A stretch of DNA of 64,000 bases from Haemophilus sputorum CCUG 13788 (GTDB taxonomy: Bacteria > Pseudomonadota > Gammaproteobacteria > Enterobacterales > Pasteurellaceae): assembly GCF_000238795.1 (NCBI RefSeq), contig NZ_AFNK01000031.1, positions 124,001 to 188,000 of the forward strand, given 5' to 3'. This document shows, piece after piece, positions 8,651-53,188 of the stretch; positions within the stretch are counted from its first letter, which is position 1; the number at the start of each line of letters is the position of its first letter. The position numbers and the translations under genes were made by a program. The notes under the pieces are model-generated. The model made no database searches, was not told where the DNA came from, and saw only the letters and a program-made list of their open reading frames with translations.

Positions 8651-8726
8651 TGGTGGGTCGTGAAGGATTCGAACCTTCGACCAACGGATTAAAAGTCCGC
8701 TGCTCTACCGACTGAGCTAACGACCC
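8651..8726 (-). tRNA. tRNA-Lys (UUU), copy 1
   Basis: Minus-strand 76-nt cloverleaf including an encoded CCA. It starts GGGTCGTTAGCTCAG, the anticodon loop CTTTTAA gives anticodon UUU, and the T arm is GGTTCGAATCC. Identical to the two following copies. Confidence 0.97.
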
Positions 8727-8745
8727 AAAAGGGAGTGTTCTAAAG

Positions 8746-8821
8746 TGGTGGGTCGTGAAGGATTCGAACCTTCGACCAACGGATTAAAAGTCCGCTGCTC
8801 TACCGACTGAGCTAACGACCC
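8746..8821 (-). tRNA. tRNA-Lys (UUU), copy 2
   Basis: Identical 76-nt gene on the minus strand, 19 bp from copy 1. Anticodon UUU and CCA encoded. Short spacers indicate one precursor transcript for all three copies. Confidence 0.97.
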
Positions 8822-8842
8822 TTTAGAGAAATTCACATTAAG

Positions 8843-8918
8843 TGGTGGGTCGTGAAGGATTCGAACCTTCGACCAACGGATTAAAAGTCCGCTGCTCTAC
8901 CGACTGAGCTAACGACCC
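8843..8918 (-). tRNA. tRNA-Lys (UUU), copy 3
   Basis: Third identical 76-nt copy, 21 bp from copy 2, and first in transcription order. The promoter should lie just beyond 8920. Confidence 0.97.
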
Positions 8919-39991: not shown

Positions 39992-41851
39992 TTAGGCTTT
40001 AAAAGTCTCTTGATCTCGAAGTAAATGAACGTTGCCTTTGCGGCGTAAAAAACCGGTGCGATCAAAGTATTCGATCAGTTGTACGGTTAACTTACGTCCA
40101 TATTGAATTTCATCACGCAGCTGATTGACCGAAATCTCGCCATGCTCGGCAATAAAGGCACGAATCAGGTCGGCAAATGCGGCGATTTGTTCGCTGAGTA
40201 AAAATCTATCTTTCACAATAGGAATCAAATACCCTAGTTTGCCAGCTTTGTATAATAAATTGCGCGTAAAAGTTTCATCTAAGCTCAAGGCTTGTGCCAC
40301 TTCTCGCACCCAAAGCGCTTGGGTGGTTGCGGCAAAAAGCGGTTGGATTTGTTGCCAAATTGGCAATTCTTTCGCATCAAACTCAATACGGTGATCTGGT
40401 AGATGAATCCAGCCACGGGTTTGCAGCAGCTGTTTTTCTTCAATGAGGGTATCAATTAAAAAATTGGCTAACGCTTCAGGCTGCGCCAACAATGCCATAC
40501 GATACAAACGCGCTTTAGTTACACCTAACTGGTCTTGGTGTTCTGCATGGTACGCTGCCATTTTTTCTAACACTTGCGCTTGTAACTGTTGTTTAAACCC
40601 AGCTTGATACAGCCATTTTTGGCTGCTACCTAAATCCAGCGCAGCAAGTTCTGCCTCGCTTAATTGCAACATCCATTGTAATTTTGCCGCTTCTACTGCT
40701 TTTTGCGCTAAATAGACCGCCGCATAGGCAGATGGCGTTTGTGCCGCAGCTAATTGAGCCACTTCGGCTAAACGTGTTTCTGTACGTTTATGACGTTTTG
40801 GAGAATCAATTTCGACTACCACCGCACCTGCAAGTGTTTGTTGGTCGTCTCCGCTACGCAAAATGAGCTTATCGCCCACAGCAATATGCAATGGTGTATC
40901 TAGAATAATTTCTGCAAATCCTTGCGCAAATTTGACCGCTTGTTTATCACTTAATAGGTTACATTTAGCGGTAGTGTGAGAGGCAAAATGATACAAATGC
41001 ACCGCATTGCTTTCTTTCAACGGTGCTTGTGCTTGAAAACGTACGGTAATGCGATCTGTTGCAAAGTCTGGCGCAAGTGCCGTGAGCCAATCGCCGCGGG
41101 TCATCTCTGCTTTTTCTACGTTCGCCAGATTCAACGCTAAACGCTCACCCGCAACGCCTTGTTCTGATGGCTGATTTTGTGCATGAATCGCTTTAATACG
41201 TACTTTCTCACCATGAGAAAGATAAAGCGAATCGCCGACTTTAACTGTGCCACTCACTGCTGTGCCTGTGACAACAACCCCCGCGCCTTTCACACTAAAG
41301 ACACGGTCAATCGCATAACGGAATGGCTTTTCTGTCAGTTGTGAAGCCGCTGCATGCGCAATTAAATAATCCCGTAATTCAGTGATGCCCTGTCCCGTAT
41401 AAGCAGAAGTGACAAAATATGGTGCATCCGCAAGTTGCGGAAATTTCTGATGAATTTGGTTAATCAGCGTTTCAATTTTGGCTGGTTCAACACGATCCGC
41501 TTTGGTAATCACCAAAGTAATTTGACGAAAATGCAGCAAGCCTAATAAGGTTAAATGCTCCACAGTTTGTGGCTTCACCCCTTCTTCGGCACTAACCACC
41601 AACAAAGCGTGATCTACACCACCTAAGCCAGCTAACATATTAGAAAGAAATTTCTGGTGCCCAGGTACATCAATAAAACCTAGCACAGCAGCTTGCCCAT
41701 TCGCATCGGTATAAGGCATGTAAGCGTAGCCTAAATCAATGGTAAGCCCACGCTTTTTCTCTTCCGGTAAGTGAGCGGTATTGGTGCCGGTCAGCGCTTC
41801 TAATAATGCGGTTTTGCCGTGGTCAACATGGCCTGCGGTGACAAAAATCAT
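39992..41851 (-). CDS. selB: Selenocysteine-specific elongation factor SelB
   Basis: Delivers selenocysteyl-tRNA to UGA codons by binding the SECIS hairpin. The protein has 619 aa. GTPase domain: G1 [16 protein letters not shown] at the N-terminus, [13 protein letters not shown] (G3), VITKADRVE (G4). EF-Tu-like beta domains carry [17 protein letters not shown]. The C-terminal third has winged helices (about 430-619) ending in [19 protein letters not shown], the mRNA-binding end. selA and selC are about 12 kb away (51.6-53.2 kb) instead of next to selB. Confidence 0.96.
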
Positions 41852-43913: not shown

Positions 43914-46900
43914 TTAAATAACCTCACCAATCCCAACAAACTTCTCAACAAAGGCAACAATCTTTTGGAAAATACTTTGTTTTTTCGTGAGATATTGCGG
44001 ATTAAGTGGACTCATTTTCGGTAGAGCTTCATTTAAATCCGTACCTTGTTCACTGGCGTATCCGCGTTTTAAGGATACGTTAATATAACGCTTCGCGGCA
44101 TTAATATTCAGGCCTTCATTGCTAATTAATTCTTCAGCTTCCTTCTGTTGCTCTTTTTGAGCAAATTGGAAGAAGGATTCAATAATACCGGCTTTATCGA
44201 CAATGCTATCTAAGTCAGTTTGATTGATAAAATCGACGATTAAACTTTCTTTGGCTCGATTACCTAGACTCGCTCTGATTGTGGTTCGAATTTCATCAAT
44301 CAGTTCAGCTTTATTTTTCATTTTTTTGTTGTGTTCAAAAATCAATTCTAAGATGTAATCTAGATTGATTTCTTGGGATTTTAATAAATCCACTTCAAAT
44401 ACCACATCATCCCAATCAATGGTCGATTTTGCTTTTTCCTCGCCATCTTTTTGACGACGTAGCCAATCCCGAATATCGTTGTAAGTTGAACGGTAATTTT
44501 GAATGCTACGTTCGCTTGGCATATCAATAGGTTGCATTTCAGCAAAAGCTTCATCCGTTAAATAATATTTTTCTTTAAAGGCTTCAACAGCTTTTGCATC
44601 ACTGGTATCGAGCGATTGAAATGCTTGTAAAGCAGCGAACTCATCATAGTTTTGCAGAATATTTTCAACTCGCAAATATTCACCAAATAATTTTACAAAG
44701 TCTTTCTTGTCTTTTTCCGTTTGAATTACATCTGGATCCGGGAAGCGTTCTTGCAATTCAGCAATAACCTCTAAATACCCGCGACGGGCGACACCTGCAT
44801 CGGTAAAACCTTCCATATATTCTTGGTAACTTTTTTCTAATACGATATTGCGCGTATTAGATTTACCGAAAAGGGTAATCGCATCAATGGTATCTTGTTC
44901 TAAATCACGGAAAGTAACGATATTGCCAAAACTTTTGGTGCTGTTGTAAATGCGGTTTGTACGAGAATAAGCTTGAATCAAACCATGGTAACGCAAGTTT
45001 TTATCCACAAATAACGTGTTTAAGGTTGGGGCATCAAAACCAGTTAAAAACATTCCAACGACAATCAGTAAATCCACTTCTTTGTTTTTAACGCGTTTGG
45101 CGAGATCACGATAGTAGTTTTGGAACGATTTCGCATCCACATCATAATTGGTGGCAAAATAACCGTTGTAATCATCAATGGCAGATTTTAAAAATTCCTT
45201 AGCCGAGGAGTTCATCGCCTCCACTTCAAAACTTTCATCAACAATATCTCCAATCGCATCTTGCTCTTCATTCGCGGCAAATGAAAAGATTGTTGCAATT
45301 TTAAGTGAATTTTTGACCGTACTTTGTAACTGTTTAAAAGTTTGATAATAAGCTTTGGCTGCATCCACGCTACTTACTGCAAACATGGCATTAAAGGCAT
45401 TGTTACCAGCATTAAAGCGATGGGTCTTTTGTTTGAAATTATCTAGAACATATTGGGCAATTTGCTCAATACGTTTAGGTTGTAAAAAGGCTTGTTTTTT
45501 CTCGAGTTTTGTTAGCTCTTCAAGATTCTTTTCAGTTTCAATGCTCTTAAATTGTGGCCGTACATCATTGTAATCCACTTTAAATTTCAGCACTTTTTCG
45601 TCACGAATCGCATCGGTGATAATATAAGAGTGGAGTGGGCTTCCAAATACACTTTTTGTTGTATCCTTACCTAATGCGTTTTCTGGGAAAATCGGTGTAC
45701 CAGTAAACCCAAATTGATAGTATTTTTTGAATTTTCTCGTGAGATTTTTTTGCGCTTCACCAAATTGAGAACGATGACATTCATCAAAGATAAAAACGAC
45801 CTGTTTATCGTAAATCGGTAATTTATCTTCTGATTTCATTAGATTATTGAGTTTTTGAATGGTGGTAACAATGATCTTATTATCGTCTTTTTCGATATTG
45901 CGTTTTAGCCCTGCCGTACTTTCCGAACCATTCACACTATCGGGTGAAAAACGTTGGTATTCTTTCATAGTTTGATAGTCCAAATCTTTTCTATCTACTA
46001 CGAAGAATACTTTTTCAATAAAGTCTAATTCCGTTGCAAGGCGTGCGGCTTTAAAGCTGGTAAGCGTTTTGCCTGAGCCTGTAGTGTGCCAAATGTAGCC
46101 ACCACTGTCTGTATTGCTCCAATTTTTCGCCAGATATGAACTTTTAATTTTCCATAAAATACGCTCGGTAGCGGCAATTTGATATGGGCGCATAATCAAT
46201 AGAGTGTCAGAAACATCAAATACACAGTAATTCACCAACACATTGAGTAGGGTATGTTTTTGTAGGAATGTCGCCGTAAAATCCTTTAAATCTTTAATCA
46301 GAGTATTTTTTGCCGTTGCCCAATTCATTGTGAAGTCGTAGCTGTTCTTATCGCGTTTGGTGGTATTGGCAAAATAACGGGTATCCGTGCCATTAGAAAT
46401 GACAAAAATCTGAATATATTTAAAGAGAGAATTTTCTTTATTGAAACTTTCTTTGCTATAGCGGTGAATTTGATTAAAGGCTTCACGAATAGCCACACCG
46501 CGTTTTTTCAGTTCGATGTGCACAAGTGGTAAACCATTAACCAAAATTGTCACATCATAACGATTATCATAGCTGCCGGTTTGTTCAAATTGATTGATAA
46601 CTTGCACGGCGTTATTGGCAAGATTTTTCTTATCTAGCAGATAGATATTCTGAATTCGCCCATTATCAAATACAAAATCATAAATATAGTCATCATGAAT
46701 TTTGCGGGTTTTCTCAATCAAACTATCGCTCGGTTTATCCAAATATTCCTCTAAAAAACGTTGCCATTCCGCATCGGAGAAAACTACGTTATTTAAGAGT
46801 TGTAATTGTGCCCGTAAATTTTTAACCAATGCATCATGATTATTGAGACCTTGTAAATAATCATAGCCTTGTGCCTGTAAATCACAAATAAATTCACGCT

Positions 46901-47015
46901 CAAGGCTCCCTTCTGTTTGATAACCAGCATTGGGTTCTTCCATAACAAACTTTTTGTATTGATCTAAAACGATAAAATTATTGGATTCAGCGATGATGGT
47001 GGAGTAGTTGATCAT
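43914..47015 (-). CDS. hsdR: Type I restriction enzyme R subunit
   Basis: Motor and nuclease subunit of a type I restriction system; translocates and cuts unmethylated DNA with HsdM and HsdS. The protein has 1033 aa. The N-terminal PD-(D/E)xK nuclease has [19 protein letters not shown] with catalytic Glu and Lys. SF2 helicase motifs follow: [11 protein letters not shown] (Q-like), [11 protein letters not shown] (Walker A), [10 protein letters not shown] (DEAD-like), FTGTPI (motif III) and [10 protein letters not shown] (motif VI). Seems intact. Last gene of hsdM-hsdS-PrrC-like-hsdR, 17 bp after the ATPase gene. Confidence 0.97.
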
Positions 47016-47032: not shown

Positions 47033-48391
47033 TTAATCCTTACCAAGTTTAATAAATTTACTTCTAAAATTATATTTTGTATTTATATGTTCGACTAAAC
47101 CTTTAAGAACGCGTTTGTCATTATCTGAAATGAGTATAGTTTCTTCTCCTGAATGTTTTGAATGACTTGATAGGTTAACTATACGATTCATATATGGGTC
47201 TGGTCCACTTCTATCTTGAGGAAGCATATCTTTCATTTCTTGGTATCCAAGAAATGTAGCAAGTTTTTCTAGAATGTTTCTAATTAAATTAAAATGATAC
47301 TTTTCTACTTCACATTCTTTTATTTCTTTTTCTTTAAATAAGGATAGTGTAAATTTATCTCCAACATAATTTTTTCTAATATAAAAAAGACTGCTCATTG
47401 TTCGATTGCTAATCAATCTATAAAATTCAGATAGTTCATTATCATTCAATGCATCTTTTTTTAGTATGGTTTCTACTTTGTTTTTATATCCATGTTTTAT
47501 TTCTTTTAGAAACTCCTGAATTTGTATTTCCTGCTTAAATATGCTTTCAAGTTTATCTATTAAGTGAACTTGATATGCAAAAGGTGAATCATTACTTTGA
47601 CTACATAAATTGTGATTATTGTCTTCCATTTTTTCTAATCTAAACTTTCTACATCCTTTTTTTAAGTTCCTAAATTCGTTACATAGAATATTATAGAATA
47701 GAGGATTATGAGTCGTGATAATGAACTTTAGATCTGACTCACTCTCTTTAATCAGGCAGGATATATTAACAGCTAGTTCAATTAAATGATTTTCATCTAA
47801 GGAGCTCACAGGGTCATCAATAAATATATATTTTAGATTATTAAAGTCTTGAGTCTCTCGTTGTGTTGGTTCAACAATATTAAGAACGGATATTATTTGT
47901 TCAAAGAGACTGTAAAAAATACTCCAAATAAAGCAACTTTCTTCCCCTTTAGAAATTTTAATATTATCTTCTTTTACATCATTTCCTCTTTCAAATGAAA
48001 AAGTAACCTGAGAGTAGTTTTCATTGAATTTAGGAGTGAGTTTATCATTTGTGTAGCGTTGAAAATTACTAATAATATTATTTTCTTGACCTTGAACTCT
48101 TAAAATCCAGTCAGTAAATTGATTTGGTTGTATGTTTAGGGTGCGGGTAGAATCTTTCTCTAAATCATTATTCCAGAAAAATAAATCTTCTGTAAATGCA
48201 CTAAAATAAATTATTTTCTTATCTTTAAAGCCAAGACTAATATCTTCTTCATTTTTAGGTGATATTAAGTTTTGAAATTCTTTTGATAATCTAGTCTTAC
48301 CAGAACCATTAAATGCATAAATCAGGTTAACTTTTGAAGTTGAGTGTTTTTCTGTTAATTCCTTTGCAATATCTTCTAATTTTTTACTCAT
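47033..48391 (-). CDS. PrrC-like ATPase with predicted anticodon-nuclease (HEPN-type) C-terminus
   Basis: A 452-aa protein placed between hsdS and hsdR, exactly where E. coli prrC lies. ABC-type ATPase: Walker A AFNGSGKT (26-33), signature ISKGEES (146-152), Walker B and D-loop YIFIDDPVSSLDENH (188-202), switch His TTHNP (226-230). C-terminus: R371-x3-E375 (RNILE) and His410/His413 (SSHSKH). PrrC uses R320-x3-E324 and H356 with similar spacing to cleave tRNA-Lys when the restriction enzyme is disabled by phage. No zinc-hook coiled coil, so not RloC. AT-richer than hsdM/hsdR. A plain AAA ATPase without nuclease activity remains possible. Confidence 0.75.
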   Translation of the reverse strand: MSKKLEDIAKELTEKHSTSKVNLIYAFNGSGKTRLSKEFQNLISPKNEEDISLGFKDKKIIYFSAFTEDLFFWNNDLEKDSTRTLNIQPNQFTDWILRVQGQENNIISNFQRYTNDKLTPKFNENYSQVTFSFERGNDVKEDNIKISKGEESCFIWSIFYSLFEQIISVLNIVEPTQRETQDFNNLKYIFIDDPVSSLDENHLIELAVNISCLIKESESDLKFIITTHNPLFYNILCNEFRNLKKGCRKFRLEKMEDNNHNLCSQSNDSPFAYQVHLIDKLESIFKQEIQIQEFLKEIKHGYKNKVETILKKDALNDNELSEFYRLISNRTMSSLFYIRKNYVGDKFTLSLFKEKEIKECEVEKYHFNLIRNILEKLATFLGYQEMKDMLPQDRSGPDPYMNRIVNLSSHSKHSGEETILISDNDKRVLKGLVEHINTKYNFRSKFIKLGKD

Positions 48392-48409: not shown

Positions 48410-49540
48410 TTAGAAATTTAAGAGAAGCTCTCTGTAATACTCATACCGCTTTTGGCTTTGTTGAATCGCCAAAGGTAAGCCTTCAGTGATGGAATGGGTT
48501 AAAGTTTCAAATTTATCTAGTATTGAAGCAATACTCTGTTGTTCTGAAAATGAGGGAACTGGAATGCGTAGATCCTCGATCATTGGTTTCGTTAGTTGAG
48601 GAATACCACTTTCAGGAACTTTATAATTTTTTTCAATCATTTTCATAAAATGGTATGCATATTTTAAATTTAATTCAATTTTTGGCGTTAATACAAGCAA
48701 TCTCACAATTGGATAGAATGGTTCTTCACGATAACTTGTCCAACCAATTGTTCCTCTAGCTGAAATTGTTAAGCTAGGTTTATTAATTTTTGCTTTATTT
48801 GTCCAACCATATAAAGATTTATTACCAGTGCCGTTTGATAAAATAGGAATATTGAATTCTTGAGTTTTATGTTGTGAATAAAATTCCTTAGGAACATCCC
48901 CCCCTGCAAAGATATTAAAAATATTTTTTAAACATTTCCACTCAAATCCAACCTTCCCAAGCTCTTCCTCACTTAATAATTTCTCCCGATAGTATTCATA
49001 CTGCTTCCGGCGTAGTGTAAGCTCGCTGGTAAGCTCGCTGGTAAGCTCGCTGGTAAGCGCTGTCAATGCGTCCAAAATTTTTACGATTTCGGTTTGGACA
49101 GGGAGTGGGGGGATGGGAATTGGAATTTGTTGTAGTTTAGCTTTTGTTAATTTTGCACGTTCCTTTCCAGCTAAGAATGGAATGAAATTCATATTAGTTA
49201 AATAATGGTATAAAAAACGATTATTTAATTTTTCTTTGCCATTCACTACATGAACGTGGTTATTTGCCCAAAATTTACCTACAGCCCACTGGATAGAGTA
49301 ATTTTCTAGACTAGCAGAACCATCTTCAGCAATTAATACAAATTCGCCATCGTGAGTATATCCCTCAACATAATCCTGGATATTATTTGCGCCATAATAT
49401 GGAATGTTTCCTGATATTCGTAAGGATGATTTGACAGGTTTTCTTGCATTATTAGCGATGTTAGCAACTTCATCTAAGGGCATCCACTTCACCTCAGCCC
49501 CATCCAATAATTTTTCTAAAAAAGTGCGGTTGTTTTTCAT
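48410..49540 (-). CDS. hsdS: Type I restriction specificity subunit
   Basis: DNA-recognition subunit that gives the restriction and methylation complex its target. Length 376 aa with two target-recognition domains (about 15-155 and 200-350). Each is followed by a helical spacer that ends in a similar box, [12 protein letters not shown] (178-189) and [12 protein letters not shown]. The central spacer has three TSEL repeats (163-174). In EcoR124-type HsdS the number of such four-residue repeats sets the gap between the two half-sites. Gene starts 8 bp after hsdM. Its start region contains one Hin-type uptake core (AAGTGCGGT, 49522-49530). Confidence 0.94.
49021..49056. repeat. Three perfect 12-bp tandem repeats inside hsdS
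   Basis: GCTCGCTGGTAA three times without change, encoding [12 protein letters not shown] on the minus strand. Length 12 keeps frame for any copy number, so slippage alters spacer length and not the reading frame. Confidence 0.95.
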
Positions 49541-49548
49541 AGTATTTT

Positions 49549-51096
49549 TTACCCCTCAATCTCCGCCACAATCTTATCAATCTCGGCACGCAAGCGGTCG
49601 ATATTGGCAACGGTTTGCTTAATTTCTGCGTTGAGTTTATCAATATCAATGACTTCTCGGGTGTCTTTTTGTTCTACATAAGAACTCACCGCAAGGTTGT
49701 ATTCCTTGTTAACGATTTCTTCAAAGGACACGGATTTGGCTAAATGCGGCACATCTTCTTTATCGGCAAACAGTTTGAGAATTTGCTCAATATGTTCCTC
49801 TTCCAAAATATTGTTATTGGTGGCGGATTTAAATAAACCGCTGGCATTGATAAATTGCGTTTGAGTATTGGGTTTATGTTTGGAAAGCACCAAAATATTT
49901 ACCGCAATACTCGTGCCGAAAAAGAGATTTGGCGCAAGCGCAATTACCGTTTCCACATAGTTATTATCCACCAAGTATTGACGAATTTTTTGTTCCGCAC
50001 CGCCGCGGTAAAAAATGCCGGGGAAGGAGACAATCGCTGCGCGGCCTTTTGCAGAAAGATAGCTTAACGCATGCAAAATAAAGGCAAAGTCTGCTTTCGA
50101 TTTTGGTGCAAGCACACCGGCAGGGGCGAAGCGTTCATCGTTAATTAGCGTTGGATCGTCTGAGCCAATCCATTTCACGGAGTAAGGCGGGTTAGAAACG
50201 ATAGCATCGAAGGGTTTATCATCGCCGAATTGCGGATTCATTAAGGTGTTGCCAAGGGCGATATCAAACTTGTCGTAGTTGATGTTATGCAAAAACATAT
50301 TCATACGGGCAAGGTTGTAAGTGGTGTGATTAATTTCCTGCCCAAAGAATCCTTCTTCAATGATGTGTTCATCAAATTGTTTTTTAGCTTGTAACAATAA
50401 AGAACCGGAGCCGGCTGCTGGGTCGTAAATTTTATTGACCTTGTCTTGTCCATACAAAGCCAGTCGAGCAATCAGCTTGGAAACGCATTGTGGCGTAAAG
50501 AACTCACCACCCGATTTACCGGCATTAGCAGCATAGTTGGAAATTAAAAATTCGTAAGCATCACCGAATAAATCAATATGATTATCTTCAAAGTCACCAA
50601 AATCTAACTCAGCAACGCCTTTTAATACATCGGCTAGGCGGCTGTTTTTATCGGCAACTGTATTACCCAAGCGGCTGCTAGTGGTATCAAAATCGGCAAA
50701 TAAACCTTTGATATCCTGTTCGGAAGGGTAGCCAGTAGCGGAGTTTTCGATAGCTGTAAAAATGTTTTTTAGGTCTGTATTTAAATTCGGATTAGTGTTG
50801 GCTGTTGCCACGACATTTTTAAATAATTGGCTTGGGTAAATAAAATAGCCTTTTGCTTTGATGGTGTCTTCTTTGATCGCTGCAATAATAGGGTCGTCAT
50901 CATTAAAAGTAGAATAATCAACGCTATCATCTCCACCTTCAATGTAGTTGGCAAAATTTTCGCTGATAAAACGATAGAAAAGCGTACCTAAAACATATTG
51001 TTTAAAATCCCAACCATCGACAGAACCGCGGACATCATTAGCGATTTGCCAAATGCGGCGTTGAAGTTCTGCGCGTTGTTGAATTGCTGCTGCCAT
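49549..51096 (-). CDS. hsdM: Type I modification methyltransferase subunit
   Basis: N6-adenine methyltransferase subunit, 515 aa. The N-terminal helical HsdM domain begins [27 protein letters not shown]. The SAM-binding region is [17 protein letters not shown] and [13 protein letters not shown]. Catalytic NPPY is in [13 protein letters not shown]. The C-terminal coiled-coil tail ([20 protein letters not shown]) contacts HsdS. First gene of the restriction operon, which ends about 25 bp from the mioC gene upstream. All conserved motifs look intact. Confidence 0.97.
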
Positions 51097-51631: not shown

Positions 51632-51726
51632 TGGCGGAGGGGAATGGGAGTCGAACCCACCCAAGAACGCTGGCGTCCTTAACAGGATTTGAAGTCCTGC
51701 CACCTCACCGGAGATGACGCCCCTCC
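51632..51726 (-). tRNA. selC: tRNA-Sec (UCA), selenocysteine
   Basis: A 95-nt gene including encoded CCA. It starts GGAGGGGCGTCATCTCCGGT, has the anticodon loop ACTTCAAAT (anticodon UCA), a long variable arm and the T arm GGTTCGACTCC. Length and the 8-bp acceptor stem match E. coli selC. Confidence 0.97.
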
Positions 51727-51793
51727 GTGGAAAATGTGGCAGTATTGTACTTTATTTATTAAAATTGTCCAAAATTTCTTTTATGAGTTAAAT

Positions 51794-53188
51794 ATGCAAT
51801 CTCTTTTCCGTCAAGTTCCTTCTATTGATAAACTTCTCCGCCATCCGCAAGCGGTCGAATTTTTACAACAATTTGCACATACTGCAGTAGTCGATGCCTT
51901 GCGCACGTTATTAACTGAAGCACGCAGCTTCATTCAACAGCAACGCCAACTGCCCGACTATTTAGCCAATGAATCCACCCTATTTGCGGCGCTGCATGAA
52001 CGTTTAAACCAAACGCATCAACCCAATATGCACCCCGTGTTTAACCTCACTGGCACCGTGTTGCATACAAATTTAGGGCGGAGTTTATGGTCTGAAAAAG
52101 CAATTGAAGCAGCAAGCGATGCCATGCGTCATAATGTTGCGCTAGAGTTCGACTTAGCAGAGGGCAGCCGTTCGCATCGCGATAATTATATTAGTGCCTT
52201 AATGCAACGTTTAGTCGGGGTCGAAGCCGCTTGCGTGGTAAATAACAACGCAGCTGCGGTGTTATTGATGTTAGCGACTTTTGCCGCTGGTAAAGAAGTG
52301 ATTGTTTCACGTGGGGAACTCGTAGAAATCGGCGGGGCATTTCGTATTCCAGACATTATGAAACAAGCGGGTTGTACTTTGGTAGAAGTCGGCACCACTA
52401 ATCGCACCCATCTGAAAGATTATCGCCAAGCGATCACAGAAAACACTGCATTTTTGATGAAGGTACATACCAGTAATTATCATATTGAAGGTTTTACCAG
52501 CAGCGTTAGTGAGGCTGAATTAGTTGAACTTGGGAAAGAATTCGGCTTACCTGTTATCAGCGATTTAGGCAGTGGTTCTCTCACTGATATGCAAGCCCTT
52601 GGCTTACCAGCAGAGCCAATGGTTCAAGAGAAAGTGGTAGCCGGTGTCGATTTAGTTTCCTTTTCTGGCGACAAACTTTTAGGCGGCCCACAAGCGGGCA
52701 TTATTGTGGGGAAAAAGGCACTCATTGACCAGTTGCAAGCGCATCCACTCAAACGTGTATTACGCTGCGATAAAGTGATTCTTTCAGCGCTAGAAGCCAC
52801 CTTGCAAAGCTATCTCACCCCAGAAAAATTAACACAAACCTTGCCAACCTTAGCGCTCTTAACTCAATCTGTTGAAGCGCTCACGCAAAAGGCGGAACAG
52901 TTGCGTGCCGTACTTTGCAAGCGGTTAGATTCACGCTATGAATTGCAAATCGAACCAAGCCTTGCGCAAATTGGTAGCGGTGCGTTGCCGAGTGAGAGAT
53001 TGCCTTCTGTCGCGCTAACTATCAGTGCAGACTCTCAAGCAGATTTACTGGCACTAGAAAATCAATTTAAGCAACTTCCAAATCCAATAATTGGTCGCTT
53101 TGCTCAACAGAAATTCTGGTTAGATTTAAGATCCGTTGCGCAATTTGAGTCATTATTGGCAATGTTAGAAACCGCAGAACTAAAATAA
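51794..53188 (+). CDS. selA: L-seryl-tRNA(Sec) selenium transferase
   Basis: PLP enzyme that converts seryl-tRNA-Sec to selenocysteyl-tRNA-Sec. Start at 51794 ([18 protein letters not shown]) gives 464 aa; the longer frame would overlap selC. Seen are [49 protein letters not shown] and the PLP-lysine motif [14 protein letters not shown]. It diverges from selC with 67 bp between. With selB elsewhere in the window, the machinery is complete apart from selD. Confidence 0.97.

Follow-up and report, generated by a model that had tools for sequence, protein, structure and literature searches.

A putative PrrC-family anticodon nuclease with an insert-bearing, exchangeable C-terminal module in a type IC restriction-modification operon

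The window analyzed in this study, a 64-kb stretch of Haemophilus sputorum DNA taken as a whole, carries a prrC-type gene that encodes a 452-aa protein on the minus strand (47033 to 48391; ATG start; ORF call and profile matches). Its neighbors in a restriction-modification (R-M) operon, likewise identified as ORFs with profile matches and likewise on the minus strand, are hsdM (49549 to 51096), hsdS (48410 to 49540), and hsdR (43914 to 47015), which gives the order hsdM-hsdS-prrC-hsdR. This agrees with the position between hsdS and hsdR of a type I operon that an earlier note on this DNA had assigned to the gene. HsdR carries an EcoR124_C domain (250 bits, Pfam), so the operon is of the EcoR124-like type IC, and the prrC stop codon is separated from the hsdR start by 17 nucleotides. 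The GC content of the prrC ORF is 27%, and that of the hsd neighbors is 35 to 41%. Across the 64-kb window there are 22 copies of ACAAGCGGT versus 4 copies of AAGTGCGGT; we take these to be the two Pasteurellaceae uptake signals, and the genome of the window presumably resembles the ACAAGCGGT group. The predicted substrate is encoded by three tRNA-Lys(UUU) genes (8651 to 8918, minus strand), all with a CUUUUAA loop. The R-M operon region is flanked by a tRNA-Sec gene (51632 to 51727) and by putative selA-like (51689 to 53188) and selB-like (39992 to 41851) genes. Within hsdS, a 12-bp tandem repeat (49017 to 49058, minus strand; 3.5 copies, 100% match) encodes TSEL, similar to the TAEL spacer repeats of EcoR124-type enzymes (PMC3874165). 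An altered copy number of this repeat could shift the spacing of the recognition sequence, as in EcoR124I/II.

Profile and pairwise comparisons support the proposal of the earlier note that the protein is PrrC-like. The PADLOC PrrC model PDLC02360 matches it with 422 bits (E=4.4e-127), Pfam AAA_13 matches with 57.4 bits against a cut-off of 36, and alignment with our E. coli reference, a PrrC (L002, CP057689.1) that is annotated as anticodon nuclease and has Arg at position 320 as in the literature, covers 371 residues with 51.8% identity. No NCBIfam family matches the protein, and the best chain in a PDB sequence search, from a Rad50-like ATPase, reaches only E=0.24. The N-module (residues 1 to 234; 47690 to 48391; here and below, all features are on the minus strand) is the ABC ATPase half and was found to hold every motif that had been claimed for it: Walker A, NGSGKTRL (residues 28 to 35; 48287 to 48310); the ABC signature, SKGEE (residues 147 to 151; 47939 to 47953); Walker B with the D-loop, YIFIDDPVSSLD (residues 188 to 199; 47795 to 47830); and the H-loop His228 (47708 to 47710). 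The module ends just past the H-loop (TTHNPLFYN); the junction between modules seen in relatives is located a few codons downstream of this His. By alignment, the C-terminal half contains QSNDSPFAY (residues 265 to 273; 47573 to 47599), the equivalent of the tRNA-recognition segment whose function is taken from PMC3014915, followed by catalytic R371-x3-E375 (47267 to 47281) and His410 (47162 to 47164), which corresponds to E. coli His356. PrrC proteins have a 15-residue PrrC box in the N half; a strongly conserved A-x-TEDLF-x-W-x-ND stretch is present in the window protein.

An alignment of 60 PrrC proteins shows R371, E375, and H410 to be invariant, as are the ATPase residues N28/G31/K32/T33, E150, D192/D193, and D199; G149 is kept in 58 of the 60 proteins, and E151 and H228 are each kept in 59. 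Of 35 viral loci, 7 were excluded from the set as duplicate or partial; also excluded were L108 (junction pattern absent), the split genes G071, G084, and L065, G111 (protein identical to that of G112), and, among others, the distant members G002, G106, and L047. The four residues named in the earlier note, R371, E375, H410, and H413, all occur at the positions given there, but H413 falls outside the conserved catalytic set, because this position is Leu or Tyr in 37 of the 60 proteins (Leu in 24, His in 23, Tyr in 13). On the sequence evidence, the catalytic triad consists of R371, E375, and H410, and H413 marks the lineage: according to the four types that we define by motifs in the C half, type A has Leu at this position, types B and C have His, and type D has Tyr (His in one case). 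Type A has 24 members, type B 17, type C 5, including the window protein, and type D 14, after two rows (vL094 and vL110) were moved from type D to type A upon inspection of their sequences.

The earlier note had also described the protein as longer than E. coli PrrC and divergent from it. The length stands, and it is mainly due to one insert of ~72 aa (residues ~282 to 353, ends approximate from alignment; 47333 to 47548) rather than to general divergence. In E. coli-type PrrC, 28 residues separate Phe292 of the recognition segment from Arg320, and this spacing is 27 to 30 in 55 of the 60 proteins; in the five intact type C proteins it is 100, 100, 105, 105, and 204. The insert lies between the recognition segment and the catalytic helix, starts about nine residues past the segment, and ranges from 72 to 176 aa across type C. 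Within the 60-protein set, all intact type C proteins come from one family, in which a PrrC-like match was found in 21 of 140 genomes searched and the insert in five intact genes (G000, G017, G092, G093, and G061) and one gene split by a frameshift (G071). The insert of G061 (L011/L074) is far longer than that of the window, with 176 residues past the usual spacing and a KEEE-type repeat. At the DNA level, the split G071 gene (L077) and its G061 counterpart are 94% identical, although the two genomes belong to different genera.

The insert was sought elsewhere. A phylum sample yielded it only in the genome of the window itself (1 of 398); in the class sample, a whole-protein query matched 16 of 369 genomes, and none of nine loci inspected had the insert. 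No match to the insert at E<=0.01 was present in 72,556 plasmid records, none of 510 pattern stretches in viral contigs was confirmed, and PrrC had no match in phage records. A pattern scan of genome contigs recovered a single relative among 110 pattern stretches and therefore carries little information on distribution. The only Pfam match to the insert, DUF2192 (E=0.011), is below cut-off. A weak match in G053 (E=6.8e-4) was rejected as chance, since it contains stop codons and no adjoining hsd or prrC ORF was recognized, and a longer Klebsiella PrrC (L064) was rejected as an insert carrier because the additional residues are in its ATPase half.

The insert is under constraint, although weaker constraint than its flanks. 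In two close pairs of type C genes (Nei-Gojobori), dN/dS is below 1 for the N-module, insert, and C-module alike, at 0.51 and 0.29 for the insert versus 0.09 to 0.30 for the other parts. Within the pairs, the insert is 87.5 and 72.4% identical, versus 93.8 and 90.2% for the rest of the C-module, and between the two type C sub-lineages insert identity is 28 to 33%; these values come from a small sample of five intact proteins that includes the two close pairs. The AlphaFold2 model of the whole protein has a mean pLDDT of 73.1 and that of the C half alone 66.5. The insert is modeled as mostly helical with low confidence and is probably helical. Foldseek pairs the whole model with Rad50/SMC-type and retron/PtuA ATPases, and the C-half model alone has no solved relative at E<=0.001. 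The C-half model (pLDDT 66.5) overlaps with 1wty_A (VIA row; Z 4.4, 89 residues, rmsd 3.6) at model residues 112 to 208, which are protein residues 346 to 442; we take 1wty to be HEPN-like.

Comparison of relatives provides good evidence at the sequence level that PrrC C-terminal halves have been exchanged as modules, with the junction at the border between the H-loop and the C half. The clearest case is a pair of genomes of one genus, G061 (type C) and G063 (type A), whose N halves are 99.6% identical in protein sequence while the C halves are 35.3, 37.1, and 34.3% identical in three alignments. The two prrC genes differ by 7 mismatches in the first 690 nucleotides, similarity then drops abruptly past the H-loop (TTHNPLFYN), and homology returns at the start of hsdR; the hsdM and hsdR DNA is 91% identical. 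The prrC loci of this pair (L074/L075) thus display a sharp N/C recombination junction just past the H-loop. Between the 3' end of hsdS and the breakpoint, identity is 96.9%, above that of the flanks, and this stretch may therefore also have moved between lineages. G063 has a RhuM-family gene 3' of its type A half, which is missing behind the type C half of the window.

Across all 60 proteins, module type needs 3 changes on the C-half tree, the smallest number possible, versus 14 on the N-half tree, many branches of which are unresolved. Because motifs in the C half define the types, grouping by type on the C tree is to some extent built in, and the N tree is the test. On the C tree, types A, C, and D each occupy one side of a branch; type B is the remainder between them and is not a clade (3 changes). 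On the N tree, the starred branches alone force at least 3 changes for type A, 2 for type B, and 2 for type C, and AU tests on the N-half data reject a type A clade (p=5e-93) and a type C clade (p=2.6e-4). Type D is a single clade on both trees. Among types A to C, 613 pairs of different type have mean identities of 60.8% in the N half and 39.9% in the C half, versus 62.1% and 57.5% for 422 pairs of the same type. No exchange was seen in E. coli, where megablast found the L002 prrC in 6 of 5,426 genomes, whole at >=99% in each. Two Klebsiella plasmids, L064 (type B) and L066 (type A), are 95% identical upstream and in hsdM and 91% identical on the hsdR side, and only patches of 65 to 68% similarity remain in both halves of their prrC genes. 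The difference in both halves argues for replacement of the whole gene rather than a clean C-half exchange. A third locus, L065 on K. pneumoniae plasmid OW969859.1, has its type B prrC annotated as two ORFs; the L064 copy is intact. We found no description of exchange inside prrC in the literature searched, which lay mostly outside subscription papers and was seen in part.

From sequence comparison, the prrC gene as a whole is also exchangeable within the hsdS-hsdR slot. Compared with G020, the window has HsdM and HsdR identities of 97.5 and 92.4% and a PrrC N-half identity of 58.6%. We compared 14 genomes of the family, taking a shorter ORF (452 aa) as the HsdM of G083. The identities of hsdM and hsdR vary together (Spearman 0.71), and the PrrC N half has a correlation of about 0 with hsdM/hsdR and the C half of -0.20 and -0.08. 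We had expected the ATPase half to be matched to its own HsdM/HsdR, and the N-half value of about 0 does not support this. In the same 14 genomes, the N and C halves of PrrC are moderately correlated with each other (0.35, p=0.0065), which indicates that exchange is not free. We surveyed the slot in 13 relatives whose hsdR matches that of the window in one piece at >=92%. PrrC occupies it in four (G017, type C; G071, type C, split; G020, type A; G129, type B), an Abi_2/AbiD protein in two (G074 and G066), and RhuM in three (G067, and G018 and G078, which also have an IS200-type transposase). The remaining relatives have RhuM remnants plus a transposase (G079), a transposase alone (G081), RhuM remnants only (G059), and 37 nucleotides (G076). 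RhuM also sits in the slot of G073, whose hsdR matches in two pieces. On more distant chassis we found an AAA_13/PDC-S06 protein taken as RloC-like together with RhuM (G109), a Schlafen/AlbA_2 protein (G004), and Pycsar genes (G118). A 733-aa reading frame in G068 (same genus; L127) has a weak match to the PrrC model (E=5e-12) and is possibly RloC-like. The loci surveyed (L130 to L154) present the slot as a place for defence genes inside the R-M operon. A defence system between hsdS and hsdR, at a potential recombination hotspot, is on record (PMC12255303), and the presence of HEPN and RhuM genes within R-M operons had been reported before (PMC3710099).

We think it likely, judging from sequence, that the gene encodes a PrrC-family anticodon nuclease that is held latent in its own type IC R-M complex and bears an exchangeable alternative C-module. 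PrrC typically cuts tRNA-Lys 5' of the wobble base, is silenced by Hsd proteins, and is activated by Stp/dTTP. E. coli PrrC is latent in the Hsd complex, is released by an anti-restriction factor, and cuts the anticodon loop of tRNA-Lys (PMC2610378, PMC3014915, PMC3874165). By homology, the ABC ATPase half of the window protein would sense both nucleotide state and the status of the Hsd complex. A phage anti-restriction factor that disables the complex would release PrrC, whose C-terminal half would then cleave a host tRNA, most likely tRNA-Lys UUU, on the 5' side of the wobble base, and translation would stop. Module exchange could let one kind of ATPase half bear different nuclease modules, and it may serve to evade phage tRNA repair, decoy tRNAs, or inhibitors or shift tRNA preference.

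The earlier note had raised the possibility of another tRNA target, and the evidence on this is mixed, with relatives in the literature speaking slightly against it. A doubtful form of the idea is that PrrC is a cartridge-type toxin whose nuclease half recombines at the H-loop junction independently of the ATPase half and the R-M genes, with the insert-bearing type C cartridge of Pasteurellaceae seeing a tRNA, or a modification state of the anticodon loop, to which E. coli PrrC is blind. Stated more narrowly, the type C module would have a different tRNA target, its shorter recognition segment and the insert together forming a new surface that binds the anticodon loop, and its exchange would retarget PrrC as TRD exchange does HsdS; this is a sub-question of the latent-nuclease explanation, with which its odds overlap, and we regard it as improbable, though by no means negligible. 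In its favor, the recognition segment is shorter (QSNDSPFAY versus KYGDSNKSFSY) and the insert follows it about nine residues on, the exchange boundary parts the ATPase from the recognition and nuclease regions, and a review notes that PrrC substrates may vary because the recognition segment varies (PMC3014915). That segment comprises residues 284 to 294 in E. coli PrrC, whose Asp287 is reported to contact the wobble base (PMC3014915). This Asp, however, aligns with D268 of the window protein, in a segment two residues shorter that leads into the insert, and its equivalent is kept in all five type C proteins, in all 17 of type B, in 20 of 24 of type A, and in 7 of 14 of type D. The authors of PMC2610378 mention unpublished results of similar activity for the H. 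influenzae and S. mutans proteins, and PrrC170, which is 35% identical to E. coli PrrC, still cleaves tRNA-Lys (PMC11555353). A protein of K. quasipneumoniae, 35.5% identical to the E. coli one, resembles type D, and we infer that it stands for PrrC170; types A and D therefore probably share tRNA-Lys as a target, so a change of module need not change the target. The tRNA-Lys loops of the window are the standard CUUUUAA, and 8 of 8 genomes that bear type A or C modules have the loop CTTTTAA, according to a search whose pattern itself contained the loop and was blind to other tRNA-Lys genes, so nothing suggests that the types answer to a changed host tRNA-Lys. Because D268 is kept, the loops are standard, and PrrC170 cuts tRNA-Lys, we favor tRNA-Lys as the probable target of type C.

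The insert and the exchange might instead serve regulation or escape from counter-defence rather than target choice, for example, by binding an Hsd subunit or a phage inhibitor or by shielding the cut end from phage repair. We give this reading, which is compatible with a latent PrrC-family nuclease, a substantial chance that falls somewhat short of even: the insert changes more quickly than the remainder of the C-module yet is constrained, and its range of lengths is that expected of an accessory surface, but no convincing homologue outside PrrC was found, the lone weak match, in G053, having stop codons. A further possibility is decay: the protein would be an inactive or degenerate relative of PrrC, and its insert a product of drift. 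The rapid fall of insert identity between sub-lineages and the frameshifted sister gene in G071 point that way; every catalytic and ATPase residue is intact, however, dN/dS is below 1 in all three parts, and the ORF is intact in two genera at 91% identity, which makes decay very improbable. Finally, the ABC/R-x3-E/His layout is common to PrrC and RloC, and Pfam AAA_13 also matches a 707-aa protein taken as RloC-like, but the window protein, at 452 aa and without a zinc-hook CXXC, scores 422 bits with the PADLOC PrrC model versus 48.6 bits for the next model, PDC-S06, and we consider it scarcely conceivable that it is an RloC.

PrrC is the textbook example of a protein that guards a restriction enzyme. 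If the nuclease half of this PrrC-family protein is swappable, a phage countermeasure against one PrrC, such as tRNA repair, decoy tRNA-Lys, or an inhibitor, may fail against another PrrC behind a like restriction operon. Were the doubtful cartridge idea true, nucleases aimed at different tRNAs would occur in one type of operon, with phage tRNA repair and decoy tRNAs as the selective forces. The natural pair G061 (type C) and G063 (type A) offers a ready comparison of C halves; as their ATPase halves are near-identical, the C half should account for any difference in target or trigger.

The window protein shares its operon order, ABC motifs, R-x3-E...H triad, and Asp287 equivalent with the EcoprrI-type PrrC of E. 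coli (type A). E. coli PrrC (L002) differs in lacking the insert, in its segment KYGDSNKSFSY, and in having Leu three residues past the catalytic His, where the window protein has His. The five type A halves from the protein's own family are 31 to 38% identical to the C half of the window. The type B proteins of an Enterococcus faecalis plasmid (LR962108.1, L005) and of Paracoccus kondratievae pKON1 (L004) are 57 to 58% identical to the window protein and share with it an NDSPF/TDSPF recognition segment, RNxLEK, and the SSHSKH motif, but they have the 28-residue spacing and no insert. To our knowledge, PrrC has no dedicated immunity gene. RloC is alike in fusing an ABC ATPase to a nuclease with R-x3-E...H; it is described as having a zinc-hook coiled coil, excising the wobble base, and occurring seldom in R-M loci (PMC2610378). 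DarTG2 in EPEC occupies the same hsdS-hsdR slot (PMC12255303), and the exchange of prrC differs in that it additionally cuts inside the embedded gene, where the ATPase joins the nuclease. In polymorphic toxins, recombination diversifies the C-terminal toxin part behind a conserved N-terminal part (PMC3482391). These toxins are secreted, whereas PrrC is not, and its alternative C halves are homologous PrrC domains. To what is known of PrrC, this locus and its relatives thus add a rare insert-bearing nuclease module and an exchange of the nuclease half, for the latter of which there is good evidence.
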